Below are positions 362 to 10,325 of a stretch of DNA of 64,000 nucleotides, in pieces. This stretch comes from an uncultured Eubacteriales bacterium. GTDB lineage: Bacteria; Bacillota; Clostridia; Oscillospirales; Oscillospiraceae. The notes under the pieces were generated by a model that saw only the letters and a list, made by a program, of their open reading frames with translations, searched no databases and was not told the origin of the DNA. A program made the translations under genes and the position numbers. The stretch is taken from NCBI GenBank assembly GCA_949293985.1, contig CASFFN010000001.1, positions 1 to 64,000 of the forward strand. Direction: 5' to 3'. Numbering within the stretch: the first letter of the stretch is position 1; every line of letters starts with the position of its first letter.

Positions 362-2086
362 ATGAAAAAGCTTTTGAAGTATATGAAAGGATATGAGAAA
401 GAGTGCATCCTGGGACCCCTGTTTAAGCTCCTGGAGGCCTCCTTTGAGCTGTGTGTCCCTTTGGTGGTGGCTGGCATTGTGGATGTGGGCATTGCCAACT
501 CCGACCAGGGATATATCCTCAAAATGTGCGGCCTACTGGTGCTGCTGGGGGCGGTGGGCTTTCTCAGCTCTGTGGTTGCCCAGTATTTTGCAGCAAAGGC
601 AGCGGTGGGCTTTGCCGTCCGGCTGCGGAACGCCCTCATGCGCAATGTTTTGCGTCTGTCTTATACGGATGTGGATAACCTTGGCACCGGTTCCCTCATT
701 ACCCGGATGACCTCCGATATTAATCAGGTGCAAAATGGCGTGAACCTGACCTTGCGGCTGCTGCTCCGGTCTCCCTTTGTGGTGTTCGGTGCCATGATTA
801 TGGCCTTTACCATTGACTTTCAGTCTGCACTGGTATTTACCGGAGTGATTCCCGTGCTGTGCGTGATTGTTTTCGGCATTATGCTGGTGACCATGCCTTT
901 GTACCGGCGGGTGCAGGCTCGACTGGAGGATGTGACCTCTGCCACCCGGCAGAACTTCTCCGGCGTGCGGGTTCTCCGGGCCTTCAATAAGGAGGAGAGC
1001 CAGGTCCGGGAATTCCAAAAAAAGACGGAAGAGCTGAACCGGGTGCAGATTTTTGCCGGACGGATTTCTGCCCTTCTTAATCCCATTACCTTTGTGGTAA
1101 TCAATGTGGGCATTATTCTTCTGGTGCACCAGGGTGCGCTGAAGGTGCACCAGGGCCTGCTGACCCAGGGCATGGTGATTGCCCTTTATAACTATATGTC
1201 CCAGATTCTGGTGGAGCTCATCAAGATGGCAAACCTTATCATTAACATGACCAAGGCGGCCGCCTGCGGCAGCCGGGTGGAGAAAGTGCTGGAAATGAGG
1301 CCCTCCGGCAAAGGCACCGCTGGAGAGGAAATGTCCCTGGATGGCAAAGTTTCCTTTGACCATGTGACCTTCACCTATGCCGGAAGCTCTGAGCCCTCTT
1401 TGGAGGATGTAACCTTTACCGCCCAGCCGGGGCAGATGGTGGGCATCATCGGCGGCACCGGCTCCGGTAAAACCACTTTGGTAAACCTGATTCCCGGCTT
1501 TTATACCTGCCAGGAGGGGACGGTCGCCCTGGACGACCGGAATGTGGAAACCCTGTCCCACGCAGGAATCTCCCGGCAGATTGGCCTGGTGCCCCAGAAG
1601 TCCGTTCTTTTCCGGGGAACCATCCGAGAGAACCTCCAATGGCGAAACCCGGAGGCTTCCGATGAGGATATGAAAAATGCTCTGGAAATTGCCCAGGCCC
1701 TGGAGGTCGTGGAAGGGAAGGGCGGCCTGGATGCTCCCGTGGAGCAGGCAGGTCTTAACTTCTCCGGCGGACAGCGGCAGCGGCTGGCCATCGCCAGAGC
1801 CCTGGTGGGCAGCCCCAGAATCCTGATTTTGGACGACAGCGCCTCTGCCCTGGACTTTGCCACCGATGCCCGGCTCCGCCAGGCCATCCGTAATATGCCC
1901 AACGCCCCCACCACCTTCGTGGTCTCCCAGCGGGCGGCATCCGTCCGGTATGCGGATCTGATTCTGGTGCTGGAAGACGGCCAGGTAGTGGGGCAGGGAA
2001 CCCATGAGGAGCTGCTGGAAGGCTGCCAGGTCTATCAGGAAATCTACTATTCCCAGTTCCCGGAGGAGGTGAAGGCCCATGGCTAA
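362..2086 (+). CDS. ABC exporter subunit with degenerate nucleotide site
   Basis: This 574-aa protein is one half of a type IV (ABCB-like) exporter: an N-terminal block of about six membrane helices (residues about 15-310) and a C-terminal ATPase. Walker A GGTGSGKTT starts near residue 364 and the signature FSGGQRQR is intact. The catalytic Glu after Walker B is Asp (D491-D492), and the H-loop His is Gln (Q523, in VSQR). Such a lame site is typical of one partner in heterodimeric exporters of the TM287/288 or BmrCD type. It overlaps the next gene by 8 bases, so the two surely work as a pair in the membrane. The substrate (drug, lipid or peptide) cannot be told. Confidence 0.93.
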   Translation: MKKLLKYMKGYEKECILGPLFKLLEASFELCVPLVVAGIVDVGIANSDQGYILKMCGLLVLLGAVGFLSSVVAQYFAAKAAVGFAVRLRNALMRNVLRLSYTDVDNLGTGSLITRMTSDINQVQNGVNLTLRLLLRSPFVVFGAMIMAFTIDFQSALVFTGVIPVLCVIVFGIMLVTMPLYRRVQARLEDVTSATRQNFSGVRVLRAFNKEESQVREFQKKTEELNRVQIFAGRISALLNPITFVVINVGIILLVHQGALKVHQGLLTQGMVIALYNYMSQILVELIKMANLIINMTKAAACGSRVEKVLEMRPSGKGTAGEEMSLDGKVSFDHVTFTYAGSSEPSLEDVTFTAQPGQMVGIIGGTGSGKTTLVNLIPGFYTCQEGTVALDDRNVETLSHAGISRQIGLVPQKSVLFRGTIRENLQWRNPEASDEDMKNALEIAQALEVVEGKGGLDAPVEQAGLNFSGGQRQRLAIARALVGSPRILILDDSASALDFATDARLRQAIRNMPNAPTTFVVSQRAASVRYADLILVLEDGQVVGQGTHEELLEGCQVYQEIYYSQFPEEVKAHG

Positions 2087-3830
2087 GGAAGAAAAGCAGA
2101 GCGTGGTGTTGGGGAAGGTGCTGCGGCTCATCAAAAAGCAGTGGTTGAGTGTGGCCCTGTCCCTTTTGATGGCGGCAGTCTATGTAGCCATGAGCCTGTA
2201 TATCCCCATTTTGGTAGGACAGGCCATTGATGCCATTGTGGACGCCGGGAAAGTGGACTTCCTTGTGGTGTCCGGAAAGCTTCAAGGGGTGCTGATCTGC
2301 TGCCTGGCGGCAGGTCTTGCCCAGTGGATTATGAACCAGCTGAATAACCGGGTAACCTACCGGGTCACCAAGGATGTACGGGACCGGGTCTTTGCCCATA
2401 TCCAGAAGCTTCCGGTTTCCTACCTGGATGCCCACCCCCAGGGGGATGTGGTAAGCCGGGTGGTGTCGGATGTGGACACCTTTGCTGACGGCCTGTTGAT
2501 GGGCTTTACCCAGCTGTTTACCGGTGTCATTACCATTGTGGGAACGCTGGTGCTGATGCTTACCATCCGGTGGCAAATTGCCCTGGTGGTGGTTGTCATC
2601 ACCCCCTTGTCTTTGGTGGTGGCGGACTTTATCGCCAAGCGGACTTACAGTATGTTCCGGCTCCAATCCCAGACCCGGGGGGAGCAGACTGCCTTTATCG
2701 ATGAAACGGTGGAAAATATCAAGCTGGTGCAGGCCTTTGGCCACGAGAAGGCATCCATGGACACCTTTGAGGAAATTAACGACCGGCTGGGAAAATGTTC
2801 CCTGAAAGCCATTTTCTTCTCCTCTTTGACCAACCCTGCTACCCGGTTTGTGAATTCTCTGGTCTATGCCGGTGTAGCCCTTTCCGGCGCTTATCTGGTG
2901 CTGGTAAGCCCCGGTTTTACGGTGGGATATCTCACAAGCTTCCTGAACTATGCCAACCAGTACACCAAGCCCTTCAACGAGATTTCCGGCGTGGTAACGG
3001 AGCTGCAAAACGCCCTGGCCTGTGCCGGACGGGTGTTTGCCCTGATGGAGGAGCCGGAACGCAGACCCGACCCGATGCATCCCCGGCAGCCGGAGAAGGT
3101 TCAGGGGGATGTAGAGCTGCGAAACCTCTACTTCTCCTACACCCCGGAAAAGCCTCTCATCCGGGACTTTTCCCTCACGGTGAAGCCCGGCCAGAAAATT
3201 GCCATTGTCGGCCCCACCGGCTGCGGTAAAACCACTTTGATTAACCTGCTGATGGGATTTTATGACCCCCAGTCCGGGGAGATTCTGCTGGACGGCGTAC
3301 CTACCCGGGAGATGTCCCGAAAAGCCCTCCGGGAGAATATCGGCATGGTGCTCCAGGATACCTGGCTCCAGTCCGGAACCATCCATGAGAACATCGCCAT
3401 GGGAAAACCGGAAGCCACCCGCCGGGAGGTTATGGAGGCTGCCAAGCAGGCCCATGCCCATAGCTTTATCAAGCGTCTGCCCCAGGGCTATGATACGGTG
3501 ATCGGAGAGCAGGGGGGGAGCCTGTCCCAGGGACAAAAGCAGCTGCTGTGCATTGCCCGGCTGATGTTGTGCCTGCCGCCTATCCTGGTGCTGGACGAGG
3601 CCACCTCCTCCATCGATACCCGGACGGAGCGGAAGGTGCAGAAGGCCTTTGACACCATGATGCAGGGTAGAACCAGCTTCATCGTTGCCCATAGGCTTTC
3701 CACCATCCAGGAGGCGGATGTAATCCTCGTCATGCGGGACGGCCATATCGTAGAGCAGGGAACCCACGAAGGCTTGCTCCAGAAGCAGGGCTTCTATGCC
3801 CAGCTTTACCAAAGCCAGTTCGCGCACTAG
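2079..3830 (+). CDS. ABC exporter subunit with canonical ATPase
   Basis: This 583-aa partner of the preceding exporter half has six predicted membrane helices, then an ATPase domain. Walker A GPTGCGKTT is near residue 378, Walker B ends LVLDEA with catalytic E507, and H-loop H538 lies in VAHRLS. The signature is LSQGQ rather than LSGGQ, so the composite site formed with the degenerate partner is weakened on both sides, as known for asymmetric heterodimers. Its start lies inside the end of the upstream gene, which implies translational coupling. After the stop there are only 41 bases to the tRNA-Ser promoter. Confidence 0.93.
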   Translation: MAKEEKQSVVLGKVLRLIKKQWLSVALSLLMAAVYVAMSLYIPILVGQAIDAIVDAGKVDFLVVSGKLQGVLICCLAAGLAQWIMNQLNNRVTYRVTKDVRDRVFAHIQKLPVSYLDAHPQGDVVSRVVSDVDTFADGLLMGFTQLFTGVITIVGTLVLMLTIRWQIALVVVVITPLSLVVADFIAKRTYSMFRLQSQTRGEQTAFIDETVENIKLVQAFGHEKASMDTFEEINDRLGKCSLKAIFFSSLTNPATRFVNSLVYAGVALSGAYLVLVSPGFTVGYLTSFLNYANQYTKPFNEISGVVTELQNALACAGRVFALMEEPERRPDPMHPRQPEKVQGDVELRNLYFSYTPEKPLIRDFSLTVKPGQKIAIVGPTGCGKTTLINLLMGFYDPQSGEILLDGVPTREMSRKALRENIGMVLQDTWLQSGTIHENIAMGKPEATRREVMEAAKQAHAHSFIKRLPQGYDTVIGEQGGSLSQGQKQLLCIARLMLCLPPILVLDEATSSIDTRTERKVQKAFDTMMQGRTSFIVAHRLSTIQEADVILVMRDGHIVEQGTHEGLLQKQGFYAQLYQSQFAH

Positions 3831-4104: not shown

Positions 4105-4132
4105 TTGACTTTGCGCCGTCCTATGCTATACT
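4105..4132 (+). promoter_or_regulatory. Promoter of tracrRNA
   Basis: TTGACT (4105-4110), 16 bases, and an extended -10 TGCTATACT (TATACT at 4127-4132). The predicted start, near 4139, lies just upstream of the anti-repeat. No other convincing promoter lies before cas9, so read-through past the tracrRNA terminator may also feed the cas operon. Confidence 0.8.
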
Positions 4133-4138
4133 AAATAT

Positions 4139-4232
4139 ATCTTGTACCACAACAAGAGACATTAGGTTACTGCGATCAGGCAGTATGCCTCAGAGCTCCG
4201 CCCCAACCACTTTTTGTGGTTGGGGCGTCTTT
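4139..4232 (+). ncRNA. tracrRNA of the type II-C CRISPR system
   Basis: About 92 nt, starting near 4139 from the promoter given. Bases 4145-4176 are the anti-repeat: they match the plus-strand array repeat (TACCACAACAAG identical, GACATTAGG next) and so pair with crRNA repeats read from the minus strand, with a small internal mismatch and several G-U pairs. A short nexus-like hairpin AGGCA-GTA-TGCCT follows at 4179-4191. The RNA ends in the strong hairpin CGCCCCAACCAC-TTTTT-GTGGTTGGGGCG (4199-4227) with TCTTT. This order (anti-repeat, small hairpin, terminator) and its place upstream of cas9 agree with known type II-C tracrRNAs. The exact ends are inferred. Confidence 0.85.
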
Positions 4233-4252
4233 GCATTTTGGGAGGGATGAAG

Positions 4253-7200
4253 ATGGAATATACGATTGGCTTGGATATTGGTGTTGCTTCCGTTGGCTGG
4301 GCGGTTTTGACCAACGATTCCCAGGGGGAACCTTGCCATATTCAGGATTTGGGCGTTCGTGTTTTTGAAGCTGCGGAAAATCCCAAAACCGGAGCCAGCC
4401 TTGCAGCGCCCCGGCGGGAGGCCAGAGGTGCCCGGCGGAGAACTTGCCGCAGACGGCACAGAAAAGAGCGCATCAAAGCCCTGCTGGTCAGGTGTGGTGT
4501 CATTACCCAGGAGGAAATGGACCGGCTTTTCCAAAACTCCGGCTTTGCCCAGGATGTCTATACCCTGCGTGCCGAAGGCCTGGACCGCTGCCTTACCCCG
4601 GAGGAATGGACGAGAGTGCTGCTCCACTTGTCCCAGCGCCGGGGCTATCGCTCCAACAGCACGGCAGAGGCTGCCAAGGACAAGGAAACCGGCGTGCTGA
4701 AGCAGGCGCTGGCAGGAAACCAGGCGCTGATGCAGGAGAAGGGCTACCGGACCGTTGGCGAGATGTTCTGTAAGGACGATAAATTCCAGTTTGTGGGCCC
4801 GGATGGAAAACTCTGGCGCAGAACCCACAATACCCCCGGGGATTACAGCTTCACCATCACCCGGGACATGATACAGCAGGAGGCGGCAGCCCTGTTTGCC
4901 ACTCAGCGGAAATTCTCCAATCCCTATGCAGATGAGGCGTTGGAGGAGCAGTATACCCAGATACTTTTGTCCCAGCGGCATTTTGACCAGGGGCCGGGGG
5001 GTAACAGTCCTTATGGCAAGGGAGATTTGCGGGGCTTTTGTACCTTTGAGCCCCAGGAGCGACGGGCCTTCAAAGCCACCTATACCTTCGAGTATTTCAA
5101 GCTCCTTCAGGACTTGAACCACATCCGTATTCTGTCCCCCAGTGAGCCCACAAGAAAGCTGACCCAGCAGGAGCGGGAGCAGCTGATTTCTCTGGCCATG
5201 GAATCCCCCTCTTTGGATTTTGCCAGAGTGCGCAAAACCTTGAACCTGCCGCCGGAGTGCAGCTTCAATGTGGTTCCCTATGAGAAGGATAAGGACGAGG
5301 CAGAGAAAAAGCGGAAGTTTCCCCAGATGCAGAGCTACCATACCCTGCGTAAAGCTCTCAATGGGGTGGAGAAAAACTACATCACCCACCTGGCCTTCGG
5401 CCAGTTGGATGAAATTGGCACCATCCTCAGCCTGTATAAGGCAGACGACAAGCGGCAGGAGGGGCTGGAAGCGCTGGGCCTGACCCAGGAGGTGATTGAT
5501 GCCTTGCTGCCCCTGTCCTTCAGTAAAGCGGGAAACCTGTCCCTGACCGCTATGAAGAAGCTGATTCCTTTCCTGGAGCAGGGGATTAACTACGATGAAG
5601 CCTGCCGGGAGGTTTACGGAGACCACCGGCGCATGGCAGGGGGACAGCGTTACCGGTACCTGACTCTGAACAAGGAGCTGTGGGACAGCGGTGCCCTGGA
5701 TGCCATCACCAATCCGGTGGTGCTCCGGGCTCTGTCCCAGACCACCAAGGTTCTCAACGCCATCATCCGCCGATACGGGCCGCCTCAGCGTATCTGCATC
5801 GAGCTGGCCCGGGAGATGAGCAATAACTTTGACCAGCGGAACAAAATCCAAAAGCAAAACGAAGAGAACCGTGCCAAGAACGAGAAGCTGATGAAGCAAA
5901 TCCAAAAGCTGAAAAAGGCCCGACCCACAGGCCAGGATTTGGTGAAATTCCGCCTGTACCAGGAGCAGGACGGTATGTGCCTGTATTCCGGCACCCAGCT
6001 GGATATGGAGCGGCTGTTTGAGCCGGGGTATGTGGATGTAGACCACATTATTCCCTATAGCATTTCCTTTGACGACAGCAACCGCAATAAGGTTCTGGTG
6101 CTGGCTAAGGAGAACCGGCAGAAGGGAAACCGGATTCCTATGGAATACCTGGCCTCCGACCCGGAGCGCCGGGAGCGGTATATCACCCTGGTGGAGCGGT
6201 ATGTCCGGGACTACCGGAAGCGGCAAAAGCTCCTGAAGGAAAAGCTGACCCCCGAGGACTGCCAGGGCTTCAAGGAGCGGAACCTGGTGGATACCCAGTA
6301 CATTACCCGCACCATTTATAATCTTCTGAAGGATTACCTGGAGTTTTCCCCCACTGCCTCCAAAACCCCTGTCCGGGCGGTAAACGGCGCTGTCACCGAC
6401 CATATGAGAAAGCGGCTGGGTCTTACCAAGCACCGGGAGGATGGAGATTTGCACCACGCCATGGATGCGGCGGTGGTGGCGGTGACCACCCCCGGCATGA
6501 TTCAGAAAATTTCCCGCTATGCGAAGCGTCGGGAGCTGGGGCAGAAGGTTGTGGGCAAGTATGTGGACCCGGAGACCGGGGAGCTTCTCTCCCAGGCGGA
6601 CTTTGACAAAAAATATGCCCCGGAATTTCCGGAGCCCTATGACGGCTTCCGGCAGGAGCTTCTGGCCCGGCTCTCTCCGGACCCGGATACCCGGATTCGG
6701 GAACTCCACCTGCCCCACTATGACGACGGAGAGGAAATCCGCCCTGTGTTTGTGTCCCAGATGCCCCGCCGGAAGGTCACCGGCCCCGCCCATGCCCAGA
6801 CCATCCGCAGCGGCAGGGAACCGGGCTACTCCCTGTCCAAAAAGCCTCTGACGGAGCTGAAGCTGGACAAGAATGGGGAGATTGCCGGATATTATAACCC
6901 CAAAGACGATGTGCTTCTCTATAATGCCCTGAAAGCCCGCCTCCAGGCATTTGGGGGCGATGCCGGGAAAGCCTTTGCCCAGCCCTTCCACAAGCCTAAA
7001 AAGGACGGCACCGACGGCCCGGTGGTGAACAAGGTGAAAATCCTGGAAAAATCCAGCCTCAATGTTTCCGCCTGCGGCGGCATTGCGGATAACGGCGGCA
7101 TGGTGCGTATCGATGTATACCGGGTGCCGGAGGATGGATACTACTTTGTGCCTGTGTATACAGCGGATGTGGTGAAAGGGATACTCCCCACCAAGGCGGT

Positions 7201-7546
7201 TGTGGCAAATAAAAATTATGAGGCATGGAAGCCCATGGAGGCACAGCACTTCCTCTTCTCCCTATATCCCGGGGATTTGGTGCGGGTGGTTGCCAAAAAG
7301 CCCATCAATATGAAGCTGAAAAACCAAAAGTCCCAGGGGGAACCGGGGCTTCTTCGGAAGGAGTGGTTGGGGTATTATGTAAAGGCGGGAATTTCGACAG
7401 CCTCTATCACTCTTTCTACACATGACCGAAAATATGAGCAACCCAGCCTGGGAATCAAAACCTTGCTGGCCTTTGAAAAGTATCAGGTAGACCCTCTGGG
7501 GGAATACCACCCGGTGCACCTGCCGGAGAAGCGGCAGGACTTTTGA
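4253..7546 (+). CDS. cas9: CRISPR-associated endonuclease Cas9, type II-C
   Basis: RNA-guided DNA endonuclease of 1097 aa, within the compact II-C size range. Domains: RuvC-I with D8 (IGLDIG), an Arg-rich bridge helix (about 54-80), the recognition lobe, RuvC-II with E517 (IELARE), HNH with D597, H598 and N621, RuvC-III with H735 and D738 (HHAMDAA), and a C-terminal PAM-interacting region. All expected catalytic residues are present. The start at 4253 has GGAGG seven bases upstream. A longer in-frame TTG at 4214 lies in the loop of the tracrRNA terminator and is unlikely. It is followed by cas1 after 15 bases. The PAM cannot be read from the sequence. Confidence 0.97.
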   Translation: MEYTIGLDIGVASVGWAVLTNDSQGEPCHIQDLGVRVFEAAENPKTGASLAAPRREARGARRRTCRRRHRKERIKALLVRCGVITQEEMDRLFQNSGFAQDVYTLRAEGLDRCLTPEEWTRVLLHLSQRRGYRSNSTAEAAKDKETGVLKQALAGNQALMQEKGYRTVGEMFCKDDKFQFVGPDGKLWRRTHNTPGDYSFTITRDMIQQEAAALFATQRKFSNPYADEALEEQYTQILLSQRHFDQGPGGNSPYGKGDLRGFCTFEPQERRAFKATYTFEYFKLLQDLNHIRILSPSEPTRKLTQQEREQLISLAMESPSLDFARVRKTLNLPPECSFNVVPYEKDKDEAEKKRKFPQMQSYHTLRKALNGVEKNYITHLAFGQLDEIGTILSLYKADDKRQEGLEALGLTQEVIDALLPLSFSKAGNLSLTAMKKLIPFLEQGINYDEACREVYGDHRRMAGGQRYRYLTLNKELWDSGALDAITNPVVLRALSQTTKVLNAIIRRYGPPQRICIELAREMSNNFDQRNKIQKQNEENRAKNEKLMKQIQKLKKARPTGQDLVKFRLYQEQDGMCLYSGTQLDMERLFEPGYVDVDHIIPYSISFDDSNRNKVLVLAKENRQKGNRIPMEYLASDPERRERYITLVERYVRDYRKRQKLLKEKLTPEDCQGFKERNLVDTQYITRTIYNLLKDYLEFSPTASKTPVRAVNGAVTDHMRKRLGLTKHREDGDLHHAMDAAVVAVTTPGMIQKISRYAKRRELGQKVVGKYVDPETGELLSQADFDKKYAPEFPEPYDGFRQELLARLSPDPDTRIRELHLPHYDDGEEIRPVFVSQMPRRKVTGPAHAQTIRSGREPGYSLSKKPLTELKLDKNGEIAGYYNPKDDVLLYNALKARLQAFGGDAGKAFAQPFHKPKKDGTDGPVVNKVKILEKSSLNVSACGGIADNGGMVRIDVYRVPEDGYYFVPVYTADVVKGILPTKAVVANKNYEAWKPMEAQHFLFSLYPGDLVRVVAKKPINMKLKNQKSQGEPGLLRKEWLGYYVKAGISTASITLSTHDRKYEQPSLGIKTLLAFEKYQVDPLGEYHPVHLPEKRQDF

Positions 7547-7561
7547 AGGGGGGCGGCCACC

Positions 7562-8464
7562 ATGGAATTTCGCTCCGTGTTCATTGCCAATCCGGCCCAG
7601 CTCTCCGTCTGTAGAGGGCAGCTGGTAATCCGCCAGGAGGGGGAGTACACCCTGCCTATGGAGGATTTGTCCGCCCTGGTGCTGGAGTCCCGGGCAATCT
7701 CCCTCTCCGCTGCCGCCCTCCAGGAACTGGCAGACCAGGGGGTTACGGTGTACCTGTGTGACGAGACCCATATGCCTGCCGCCCTGGTGCTCCCCATGAA
7801 CCGCCACAGCCGCCAGCGAAAGCTCCTGCAGAACCAGATAGACCTGTCCAAGCCCACCCAGAAGCGGCTGTGGCAGGGGGTGGTCACCGCCAAAATCGCA
7901 AACCAGGCCCGGTGCCTGAAGCTGCTGGGCCGCCGGGAGGGGGCGGATCTGGCCTTTGTAGCAACCCAGGTGCGCTCCGGGGACCCGGACAACCTGGAGG
8001 CGGCGGCAGCTGCCGCCTATTTCCCGGCCCTCTTCGGCCCGGGCTTTACCCGGGGAGAGGAGTGCCTTGCCAATGCCGCCCTGAACTATGGCTATGCCAT
8101 CCTCCGGGGGGCGGTGGCCCGGAACCTGGTGATTCACGGCCTGGAGCCCTGCCTGGGGATTTTCCACCGCAGCCAGTTAAACCAGTTTAACCTGGCGGAC
8201 GACCTGATGGAGCCCTACCGCCCCCTGGTTGACCTGTATGTAGCCTCTCACCTTCCGGACTGGGAGGGAGAAACCCTCACCCCCAGGGTTAAGCAGCAGC
8301 TGGTTCAGCTGATGAACTACCTGGTGGAGCAGGAGGGACGGCGTTACCGGGCCATCTCCGCCATTGGCCGTATGGCGGAGAGCTTCAGCCGGATTGTCCA
8401 GGGGGAGAAGGAGAGCCTGGAGCTGCCGGCCCTCCTCCCCCTCCAGCCCCATACCTATGAGTAG
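7562..8464 (+). CDS. cas1: CRISPR integrase subunit Cas1
   Basis: This 300-aa protein forms the Cas1-Cas2 complex that inserts new spacers at the leader end of the array. The metal-binding triad is E146 (in LEAAAAAAYF), H202 (IFHRSQ) and E217 (DLMEPYRP), with spacing like other type II Cas1 proteins. The conserved NAALNYGYAIL helix is present. A G-rich ribosome site precedes the ATG, 15 bases after cas9. With cas2 following and neither csn2 nor cas4 present, the locus is assigned to subtype II-C. Confidence 0.96.
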   Translation: MEFRSVFIANPAQLSVCRGQLVIRQEGEYTLPMEDLSALVLESRAISLSAAALQELADQGVTVYLCDETHMPAALVLPMNRHSRQRKLLQNQIDLSKPTQKRLWQGVVTAKIANQARCLKLLGRREGADLAFVATQVRSGDPDNLEAAAAAAYFPALFGPGFTRGEECLANAALNYGYAILRGAVARNLVIHGLEPCLGIFHRSQLNQFNLADDLMEPYRPLVDLYVASHLPDWEGETLTPRVKQQLVQLMNYLVEQEGRRYRAISAIGRMAESFSRIVQGEKESLELPALLPLQPHTYE

Positions 8465-8777
8465 GCTTATGCGGATTCTGGTGTTTTTCGACCTCCCGGT
8501 GAAAACCAGGGACCAGCGGCGGGCGGCCACCCGCTTCCGGAATTTTCTCCTGGGAGACGGCTACCACATGATCCAGTACTCCGTCTATGCCCGGGTGTGC
8601 AGCGGCATGGATGCGGTGGCGGTGCACAAAAACCGCCTGGCGCTGGCGGTTCCCCGCCGGGGGGCGGTGCGGGTGCTGGTGATTACGGAAAAGCAGTACA
8701 CCCACCTGGACATTCTCCTGGGGGAGCCTACCCCCTATGACGCCCCCCAGCAGGACAAAGACCTGATGGTTTTTTGA
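8457..8777 (+). CDS. cas2: CRISPR adaptation protein Cas2
   Basis: This 106-aa ferredoxin-fold protein is the structural partner of Cas1 in spacer acquisition. It begins MSRLMRILVFFDLP, with the conserved Asp after the first beta strand and the SVYARVC strand later. The ATG at 8457 overlaps the end of cas1 by 8 bases; an alternative ATG at 8469 would give the common MRILVFFDLP start. It is the last gene of the cas operon and is followed by the terminator at 8812-8866. Confidence 0.93.
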   Translation: MSRLMRILVFFDLPVKTRDQRRAATRFRNFLLGDGYHMIQYSVYARVCSGMDAVAVHKNRLALAVPRRGAVRVLVITEKQYTHLDILLGEPTPYDAPQQDKDLMVF

Positions 8778-8811: not shown

Positions 8812-8866
8812 AAAAAGAAAAACCCTGAAGCCTCTGTTTGGCAGAAGCTTCAGGGTTTTCTTCTTT
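8812..8866. terminator. Bidirectional terminator between cas2 and the CRISPR array
   Basis: AACCCTGAAGC and GCTTCAGGGTT form the stem. The plus strand continues TTCTTCTTTT. The minus strand continues with TTTTTCTTTTTTT, an even better tail. It can stop cas operon transcripts from the left and array transcripts from the right. Confidence 0.8.
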
Positions 8867-8928
8867 TGCCTGCTTTCCCGGAAGTATACCCGGAAAAAAG
8901 TAAGTTTTTTGGCAGTTTCCCAAAGTCT
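8867..8928. promoter_or_regulatory. Presumed CRISPR leader
   Basis: A short A/T-rich stretch of 62 bases between the terminator and the first perfect repeat. The end next to cas2 carries perfect repeats while the far end is degenerate, so this side is inferred to be where new spacers enter. No gene is present. Confidence 0.55.
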
Positions 8929-10020
8929 ATTATACCACAACAAGAAACATTAGGGAACTACAACAAGATGGTGTGTTTGCTGATTTCTTTTGTATTATAC
9001 CACAACAAGAAACATTAGGGAACTACAACCAGATCAGACAACTGCTGTTTCCATTTCCGATTATACCACAACAAGAAACATTAGGGAACTACAACAAGGG
9101 TTTTACAAGTGAGGAGGCGTAACATATTATACCACAACAAGAAACATTAGGGAACTACAACTTGTGGAATATCAACCGCCAGAGTGACCTCGATTATACC
9201 ACAACAAGAAACATTAGGGAACTACAACTGCCAAAGTAGTAGGAAACGCACTCAACGCATTATACCACAACAAGAAACATTAGGGAACTACAACTCGTAG
9301 CCTGCACCTCTGGCCCATTCCATGATTATACCACAACAAGAAACATTAGGGAACTACAACGGTTGCGGTATCTTTTGTCGGAATTAGACCATTATACCAC
9401 AACAAGAAACATTAGGGAACTACAACGGAATCACCGTGTCTGCCTGGGGGATTTCCATTATACCACAACAAGAAACATTAGGGAACTACAACCTTATGAG
9501 CCGCCTTCCGAATCTTTTTTTGATTATACCACAACAAGAAACATTAGGGAACTACAACTATCCTGATGATGTTTCTCATATGGAAGCCATTATACCACAA
9601 CAAGAAACATTAGGGAACTACAACGACGATAAAGCCGACGAGCGAAAAGCCGAGATTATACCACAACAAGAAACATTAGGGAACTACAACTCGGTTCTAT
9701 CCTTCATTATGTAGTCAGCAATTATACCACAACAAGAAACATTAGGGAACTACAACATTATACTTCTACTTTTACTGTCCCTGGAAATTATACCACAACA
9801 AGAAACATTAGGGAACTACAACTCACACTGTAACACACCGTCCGTGTAGTCGATTATACCACAACAAGAAACATTAGGGAACTACAACCTTTGACACATG
9901 AGTATAAATGCGATCCATATTATACCACAACAAGAAACATTAGGGAACTACAACACTTGGTGCCCTCAAAACGCTGCAAGCGCTATTATACCACAACAAG
10001 AGACAATCGGGAAGGGGTAT
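8929..10020 (-). CRISPR. CRISPR array, 17 repeats and 16 spacers
   Basis: Repeats are 36 bp (starting ATTATACCAC and ending ACTACAAC on the plus strand). Repeats 1-16 (8929 to 9954) look identical. Repeat 17 (9985-10020) keeps the first half but is altered after about base 17. Spacers are 30 bp, except the first (29) and the fourth (31). Read on the minus strand the repeat begins GTTGTAG and ends TGGTATAAT, the layout known from Neisseria-type II-C arrays, where each repeat carries an extended -10 promoter for its crRNA. The tracrRNA anti-repeat also demands minus-strand crRNAs. The spacer targets are unknown. Confidence 0.97.
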
Positions 10021-10051: not shown

Positions 10052-10080
10052 TTGACTTTCCCTGGAATTTGTGATAGAAT
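10052..10080 (+). promoter_or_regulatory. Promoter of the cobalamin/heme gene run
   Basis: TTGACT (10052-10057), 17 bases, TAGAAT (10075-10080). Transcription would start a few bases before the first paired base of the riboswitch at 10091. It lies only about 30 bases beyond the degenerate CRISPR repeat. Confidence 0.75.
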
Positions 10081-10090
10081 GACAAAAATT

Positions 10091-10242
10091 CGTTGCAGTG
10101 CATAGGGAGCTATGCCGGGAATACGGTGCAAATCCGTAACAGTCACGCTGCTGTAAGGCGGACGAAAGCCAAGATGCCACTGGGAACCCCCTGGGAAGGC
10201 AGGCAAGTAGGAGGAAGCCAAGTCAGAATACCGACTGCAACG
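10091..10242 (+). ncRNA. Cobalamin riboswitch aptamer
   Basis: The closing stem is a perfect 9-bp pair (CGTTGCAGT at 10091-10099 with ACTGCAACG at 10234-10242). Between them are family hallmarks: GCCGGGAATACGGTGCAAAT, the GCCACTGGGAA region, and the B12-box-like GGAAGCCAAGTCAGAATACC near the 3' side. It senses adenosylcobalamin or a related corrinoid and heads the biosynthetic genes, so feedback repression is expected. Confidence 0.95.
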
Positions 10243-10325
10243 CCAGATGGACAAAATCCTTTCGGCGAAAAAGGATATCTGACCAAAAGAGCCCTGTGTG
10301 GGGGTAGTATATCTTTGCCTTTTTT

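Follow-up and report, generated by a model that had tools for sequence, protein, structure and literature searches.

Extended −10 boxes inside the repeats of a minimal type II-C CRISPR array from the Oscillospiraceae and their probable role as crRNA promoters

Introduction

Promoters inside the repeats are a known source of CRISPR RNA (crRNA) in type II-C systems (CRISPR, clustered regularly interspaced short palindromic repeats). They were shown in Campylobacter jejuni, where differential RNA sequencing and primer extension located primary starts near spacer position 5 and where processing by RNase III was also shown (PMC3656092). For Neisseria meningitidis, an extended −10 element in the repeats and initiation in each of them are reported (Zhang et al. 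2013, as related in PMC7038990 and PMC5006608), with RNase III described there as dispensable. In Clostridium cellulolyticum H10 the last nine repeat bases resemble an extended −10, and internal starts were suggested, not mapped; its crRNAs, expressed in Escherichia coli, carry 23 to 26 nucleotides (nt) of spacer and 24 to 28 nt of repeat (PMC7038990). A survey of type II-C systems takes the repeats to carry promoters generally, with spacers added at the downstream end (PMC12080349). Here we examine a type II-C locus in positions 1 to 64,000 of contig CASFFN010000001.1 (assembly GCA_949293985.1; this 64-kb stretch is called the window), from an uncultured Eubacteriales bacterium, in which a first-pass annotation had noted an extended −10 box in every repeat.

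The sequences of this locus and of its relatives make it very probable that its crRNAs are transcribed on the minus strand from promoters inside each repeat. The locus is a further example of a design already shown in C. jejuni, reported in N. meningitidis and suggested in C. cellulolyticum, and not a new mechanism. It resembles the C. jejuni system in its putative internal repeat promoters and in having three cas genes only, and differs in the box, which is GGTAAAAT in C. jejuni and GGTATAAT in the window. With C. cellulolyticum H10 it shares a Clostridia host, an array opposite to the cas genes and a trans-activating CRISPR RNA (tracrRNA) upstream of them; the species and the Cas9 are different, and RNA was sequenced there, whereas the window system is known from its DNA sequence alone. 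The Clostridia setting, to which the first-pass annotation had pointed, has a precedent, since the same inference was published for C. cellulolyticum together with small-RNA sequencing in E. coli (PMC7038990). What is added here is a clade-wide comparison, chiefly of anti-repeats that retain pairing while dropping the box. In its available part, the type II-C survey contains neither box conservation nor loss of the box from anti-repeats, nor does it treat the clade of the window separately (PMC12080349).

An extended −10 box in every repeat

The CRISPR array spans positions 8929 to 10020 and comprises 17 repeats of 36 nt and 16 spacers of 29 to 31 nt; its crRNA strand is the minus strand, as set by the tracrRNA anti-repeat. 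Sixteen repeats are identical (starts at 8929, 8994, 9060 and so on to 9919), and the seventeenth, at 9985 to 10020, has decayed. On the minus strand the repeat reads GTTGTAGTTCCCTAATGTTTCTTGTTGTGGTATAAT. All 17 copies end in TGTGGTATAAT, which matches TRTGnTATAAT at every defined position, that is, an extended −10 element with the −16 motif, whose TRTG consensus is known from the Gram-positive Bacillus subtilis (PMC6570832). In the newest, cas2-proximal repeat the box occupies 8929 to 8939 (minus strand), and the same 11-nt box lies on the same strand at the low-coordinate end of the other repeats, from 8994, 9060, 9126, 9193, 9259, 9325, 9391, 9457, 9523, 9589, 9655, 9721, 9787, 9853, 9919 and 9985.

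The box noted in the first-pass annotation is thereby confirmed. TGGTATAAT has 17 copies in the window, all on the minus strand within the repeats of the array and none elsewhere. The looser TGnTATAAT has just 4 further copies in the 64 kb, both strands counted; with so few elsewhere, it is very improbable that a match would fall by chance at precisely the end of the repeat. The annotation had also predicted a start inside each spacer. This stands, as a prediction, for 16 of the boxes; that of the newest repeat faces the leader and not a spacer, hence 17 boxes for 16 crRNAs. The range that it gave, 8929 to 10020, holds the 17 repeats and misses the tracrRNA and the terminator described below, which complete the unit.

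The transcribed strand was read from the tracrRNA. A promoter is predicted on the plus strand at 4105 to 4132, with TTGACT as −35 (4105 to 4110), 16 nt of spacing and TATACT as −10 (4127 to 4132); this −10 is preceded by TATGC, which gives TRTGnTATACT. The predicted tracrRNA (about 4139 to 4233, plus strand) would contain the anti-repeat at about 4142 to 4177, hairpins, and an intrinsic terminator with its stem at 4199 to 4210 and 4216 to 4227. The anti-repeat was recognized as a local match to the repeat over 30 nt with few mismatches, and cofolding of repeat and tracrRNA gave −80.2 kcal/mol, with a duplex spanning 33 of the 36 repeat nt and a small internal loop. Because promoter, anti-repeat and terminator follow one another on the plus strand, a crRNA that pairs with the anti-repeat must derive from the minus strand. 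On this sequence evidence functional crRNA must be made opposite to the cas operon (cas9-cas1-cas2, plus strand), as the first-pass annotation had also stated. An anti-repeat was found in 57 loci, the window counted, and in every one it precedes cas9 and has the same orientation. In four AT-rich Clostridia loci (L045, L048, L053 and L087) a short hairpin like the repeat end (TGTACTAGGGAAGTACA-like) stands directly 5' of the anti-repeat and could belong to an extended form of the tracrRNA.

Conservation in related loci

To collect relatives, genome contigs were scanned once with an alignment of four Cas9 sequences; this gave 80 loci, most of them with an adjoining array; the array of L035, mis-framed by the array finder, was excluded. 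Among 47 distinct repeats from these loci, the end is TATAAT in 41, TGnTATAAT in 39 and TRTGnTATAAT in 32. The perfect TATAAT is therefore the norm of the clade, and the specially strong version of the design that the first-pass annotation had considered possible in the window is not borne out. Repeat positions 13 to 19 vary freely among the 47, and within positions 28 to 36 the most variable is position 30, which the promoter consensus leaves free (n). In 7 type II-A arrays of the same order no such box was found on either strand.

Comparison with the anti-repeats of 57 loci separates two kinds of constraint. Positions 28 to 34 of the repeat are paired in 96 to 100% of the loci and position 35 in 86%, and tracrRNA pairing could account for much of the conservation at positions 28 to 35. 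The −10 ends at position 36, where 54 of the 57 repeats have T although just 35% of the anti-repeats allow pairing there; to judge from these sequences, the conservation of this last T is beyond what RNA pairing explains. TATAAT is kept in 10 of the 57 anti-repeats; it occurs in the repeat only in 42 loci and in the anti-repeat only in 0.

The decayed repeat at 9985 to 10020 (minus strand) is the oldest, or "extra," repeat of the array. It has 1 change in its promoter half (crRNA positions 19 to 36) and 8 in its crRNA-handle half, and its duplex with the tracrRNA is weakened from −48.7 to −36.2 kcal/mol. In the 38 arrays whose far end could be read, the oldest repeats carry 165 substitutions at positions 1 to 18, 12 at positions 19 to 36 and 3 at positions 24 to 36 (Fisher p = 0.0008 for positions 19 to 23 versus 24 to 36), and 31 of the 38 still have TGnTATAAT. 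The type II-C survey likewise describes mutations concentrated in the first 15 nt of the extra repeat, and notes that the promoter in this repeat has to be preserved (PMC12080349). The oldest repeats of type II-A arrays show the opposite loss, with the 3' part gone and the crRNA handle retained.

Some arrays have TATAAC as their box. In L105 (same genus, G009), whose array runs from 7870, the crRNA strand carries TTGACA-18-TAGGAT just upstream of the oldest repeat, and this array has possibly moved to an external promoter. Of two further TATAAC arrays, that of L026 showed no such upstream site, and the contig of L057 ends too near for reading.

Ends of the proposed transcription unit

Between the array and cas2, an intrinsic terminator is found on the crRNA strand at 8860 to 8818 (minus), with a 19-pair stem and a CTTTTTTTAT tail; the same hairpin (8818 to 8860) is able to end the cas operon on the plus strand. 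Of 57 arrays, 40 have a crRNA-strand terminator in this gap, where dinucleotide shuffles give an expectation of 3.8, and the hairpin is bidirectional in 31 of the 57 loci, so that part of the terminator signal is the end of the cas operon. On the far side of the arrays, crRNA-strand terminators were found in 0 of 40. Promoter-like sites on the cas strand beside the array show no excess (13 versus 13.0 expected). Expectations for the far-side and terminator scans came from single-base shuffles, and the terminator count was redone with the dinucleotide shuffles.

A putative leader, taken as the acquisition end, occupies 8861 to 8928 on the cas2 side. In a flank alignment it is homologous to that of the closest named relative, Candidatus Faecousia excrementipullorum (L016, Cas9 94% identical; family Oscillospiraceae), while the far flanks of the two loci are unrelated, and therefore they have no shared external array promoter. 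Acquisition at the cas2 end would fit the decayed repeat at the far end and the conserved leader; shared spacers among the loci were not found. The bases adjoining the newest repeat (8925 to 8928 in the window) mostly end in GTCT, GCCT or CCCT in most arrays and are perhaps a leader anchor read by Cas1-Cas2.

Proposed mechanism

We propose that TGTGGTATAAT in each repeat acts as an extended −10 promoter without a usable −35, which would be read by the housekeeping sigma factor. Transcription would start 6 to 8 nt into the next spacer, that is, 6 to 8 nt below each box coordinate on the minus strand, and the transcript would consist of a guide of about 23 to 24 nt followed by the next repeat. 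The predicted start parallels the one mapped in C. jejuni, at about position 5 (PMC3656092), and the predicted guide agrees with the 23 to 26 nt of C. cellulolyticum (PMC7038990). The next repeat in the transcript would pair with the plus-strand tracrRNA, and trimming by RNase III would set the 3' end; such trimming of the 3' end, known from C. jejuni, is to be expected because rnc was found in the host genome and the pairing covers 33 of 36 nt. Read-through transcripts would stop at the terminator between the array and cas2, as would the RNA that the newest repeat is predicted to drive into the leader. New spacers would join on the cas2 side, immediately downstream of a promoter-bearing repeat, and being inserted directly under an existing promoter they would be expressed at once. 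The oldest repeat, with its crRNA-handle role gone, would remain as the promoter of the oldest spacer.

A broader reading is put forward tentatively. In this Clostridia clade the repeat may be constrained at once as a promoter, as an integration site and as the partner of the tracrRNA, and selection may have removed the final base of the box from the anti-repeat (mostly TATAAT to TATAAG), leaving it able to pair with the crRNA without starting transcription in the tracrRNA region or attracting spacers; the outward promoter of the newest repeat might then keep the integration site transcribed, a new spacer being expressed at once.

With this work the repeat-promoter design, represented by two Gram-negative models and by a Clostridium in which it was suggested, would reach a wide range of gut Clostridia, on several lines of comparative evidence. 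If the proposal is true, a spacer is served by a promoter of its own anywhere in the array, and the array carries its promoters when it moves. Comparing the repeats, which keep the box, with the anti-repeats, which lose it, is a test that needs only sequence and is usable on other type II-C systems.

Alternative explanations

That each repeat carries a minus-strand promoter for the downstream spacer in this Clostridia-type II-C system, as claimed in the first-pass annotation, was supported by all the comparative tests run: the tracrRNA sets the strand, the box is conserved in relatives and kept in the decayed oldest repeat, anti-repeats have lost it, terminators lie on the crRNA strand and type II-A arrays lack it. 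Several observations weigh in the other direction. The hexamers at −35 distance within the repeat (TTCCCT and its neighbors) match TTGACA poorly, so that the promoter would have to be of the extended −10 type, without a usable −35. TGnTATAAT is not matched by 8 of the 47 distinct repeats, 4 of which differ at the important last T, and the related sequences are not independent, so that the counts overstate the number of events. The spacer-adjoining, inner half is retained also in the oldest repeats of type II-A arrays, where it is the crRNA handle, and recombination between repeats is a possible contributor to its retention; since type II-C and type II-A both keep this half, the oldest-repeat test is not decisive alone. 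Lastly, promoter-like sites on the crRNA strand are in slight excess on the far side of the arrays (11 of 40 versus 6.4 expected).

This excess would suit a single external promoter beyond 10020 that makes a long minus-strand precursor, cut by tracrRNA and RNase III, with the box incidental; the presence of rnc and the extensive pairing of the consensus repeat with the tracrRNA would suit it as well. The window has no promoter-like site on the minus strand between the array and the riboswitch that follows it, the far flank is not shared with the 94% relative, and RNA pairing leaves one conserved position of the box unexplained; we give an external promoter little chance. Transcription of the array on the plus strand, from the leader beside cas2, would follow the leader-promoter model proposed for the Riemerella type II-C system (PMC5006608) and fits the location of the leader. 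A plus-strand RNA would be unable to pair with the plus-strand anti-repeat, promoters are not in excess beside cas2, and the terminators on that side are those of the crRNA strand; this explanation is hardly credible.

Two further explanations keep the repeat end conserved for reasons other than transcription. Pairing with the tracrRNA as the sole cause draws on the nearly complete pairing of positions 28 to 35, yet compensatory change is possible, being seen at positions 13 to 21, and positions 28 to 36 remain TGnTATAAT nonetheless; as position 36 is unpaired in most loci and is still T, we find this cause very unlikely. Conservation for integration by Cas1-Cas2, from which the likeness to a −10 would merely follow, has more in its favor: integration begins at the leader-side end of the repeat, which is where the box stands, the bases beside the newest repeat appear conserved, and integration could account for position 36. 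Against it, the oldest repeat, which is no integration site, retains the box while its other half decays, and type II-A repeats of the same order, likewise integrated by Cas1-Cas2, end differently. We consider it improbable as the whole explanation; the promoter and integration functions of the repeat end are compatible and not exclusive.

Locus anatomy and spacer targets

The order of the locus in the window is tracrRNA (predicted), cas9, cas1 and cas2, all on the plus strand, followed by the array, with its crRNA strand minus. The cas9 gene (4247 to 7546, plus) encodes 1,099 amino acids (TIGR01865, E = 4e-245; HNH_4, RuvC_III and Cas9_RuvC), and the closest solved full-length chains are compact Cas9s. 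It is followed by cas1 of the type II (NMENI) kind (7562 to 8464, plus; TIGR03639, 283.8 bits versus a cutoff of 120; PADLOC Cas1_II) and by cas2 (8457 to 8777, plus; TIGR01573; PADLOC Cas2_II). Neither csn2 nor cas4 was found at the locus, and the cas set is cas9, cas1 and cas2; the assignment to type II-C rests on this absence. By its sequence the locus is a minimal type II-C CRISPR-Cas system: it has the three cas genes, a compact Cas9 (class of about 1,000 to 1,100 amino acids) with HNH and RuvC, and a tracrRNA anti-repeat. It departs from the type II-A profile of a leader promoter before the first repeat, boxless repeats and csn2, its own repeats bearing the box.

Phage and plasmid records searched with the whole array, and viral contigs searched with the 22-nt parts of 5 spacers on the side of the protospacer-adjacent motif (PAM), gave no protospacer, so that a PAM-based check of the strand was impossible. 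The repeat pattern was not found in viral contigs. A purine preference at the predicted starts was looked at and set aside because the spacers are not selected for it. The only plasmid match was OY725839.1 (Subdoligranulum variabile), a 100-kb non-mobilizable record that matched in six places through a related array at 67.5% identity, which suggests that relatives of the window system occur on plasmids.

Upstream of the CRISPR locus lies an ABC transporter pair (362 to 3830), and downstream of the array a cobalamin riboswitch (10079 to 10253) is followed by cobalamin genes. Directly before this riboswitch, about 30 bp past the end of the array, the plus strand carries a promoter-like TTGACT-17-TAGAAT at 10052 to 10080, with TG preceding the −10.
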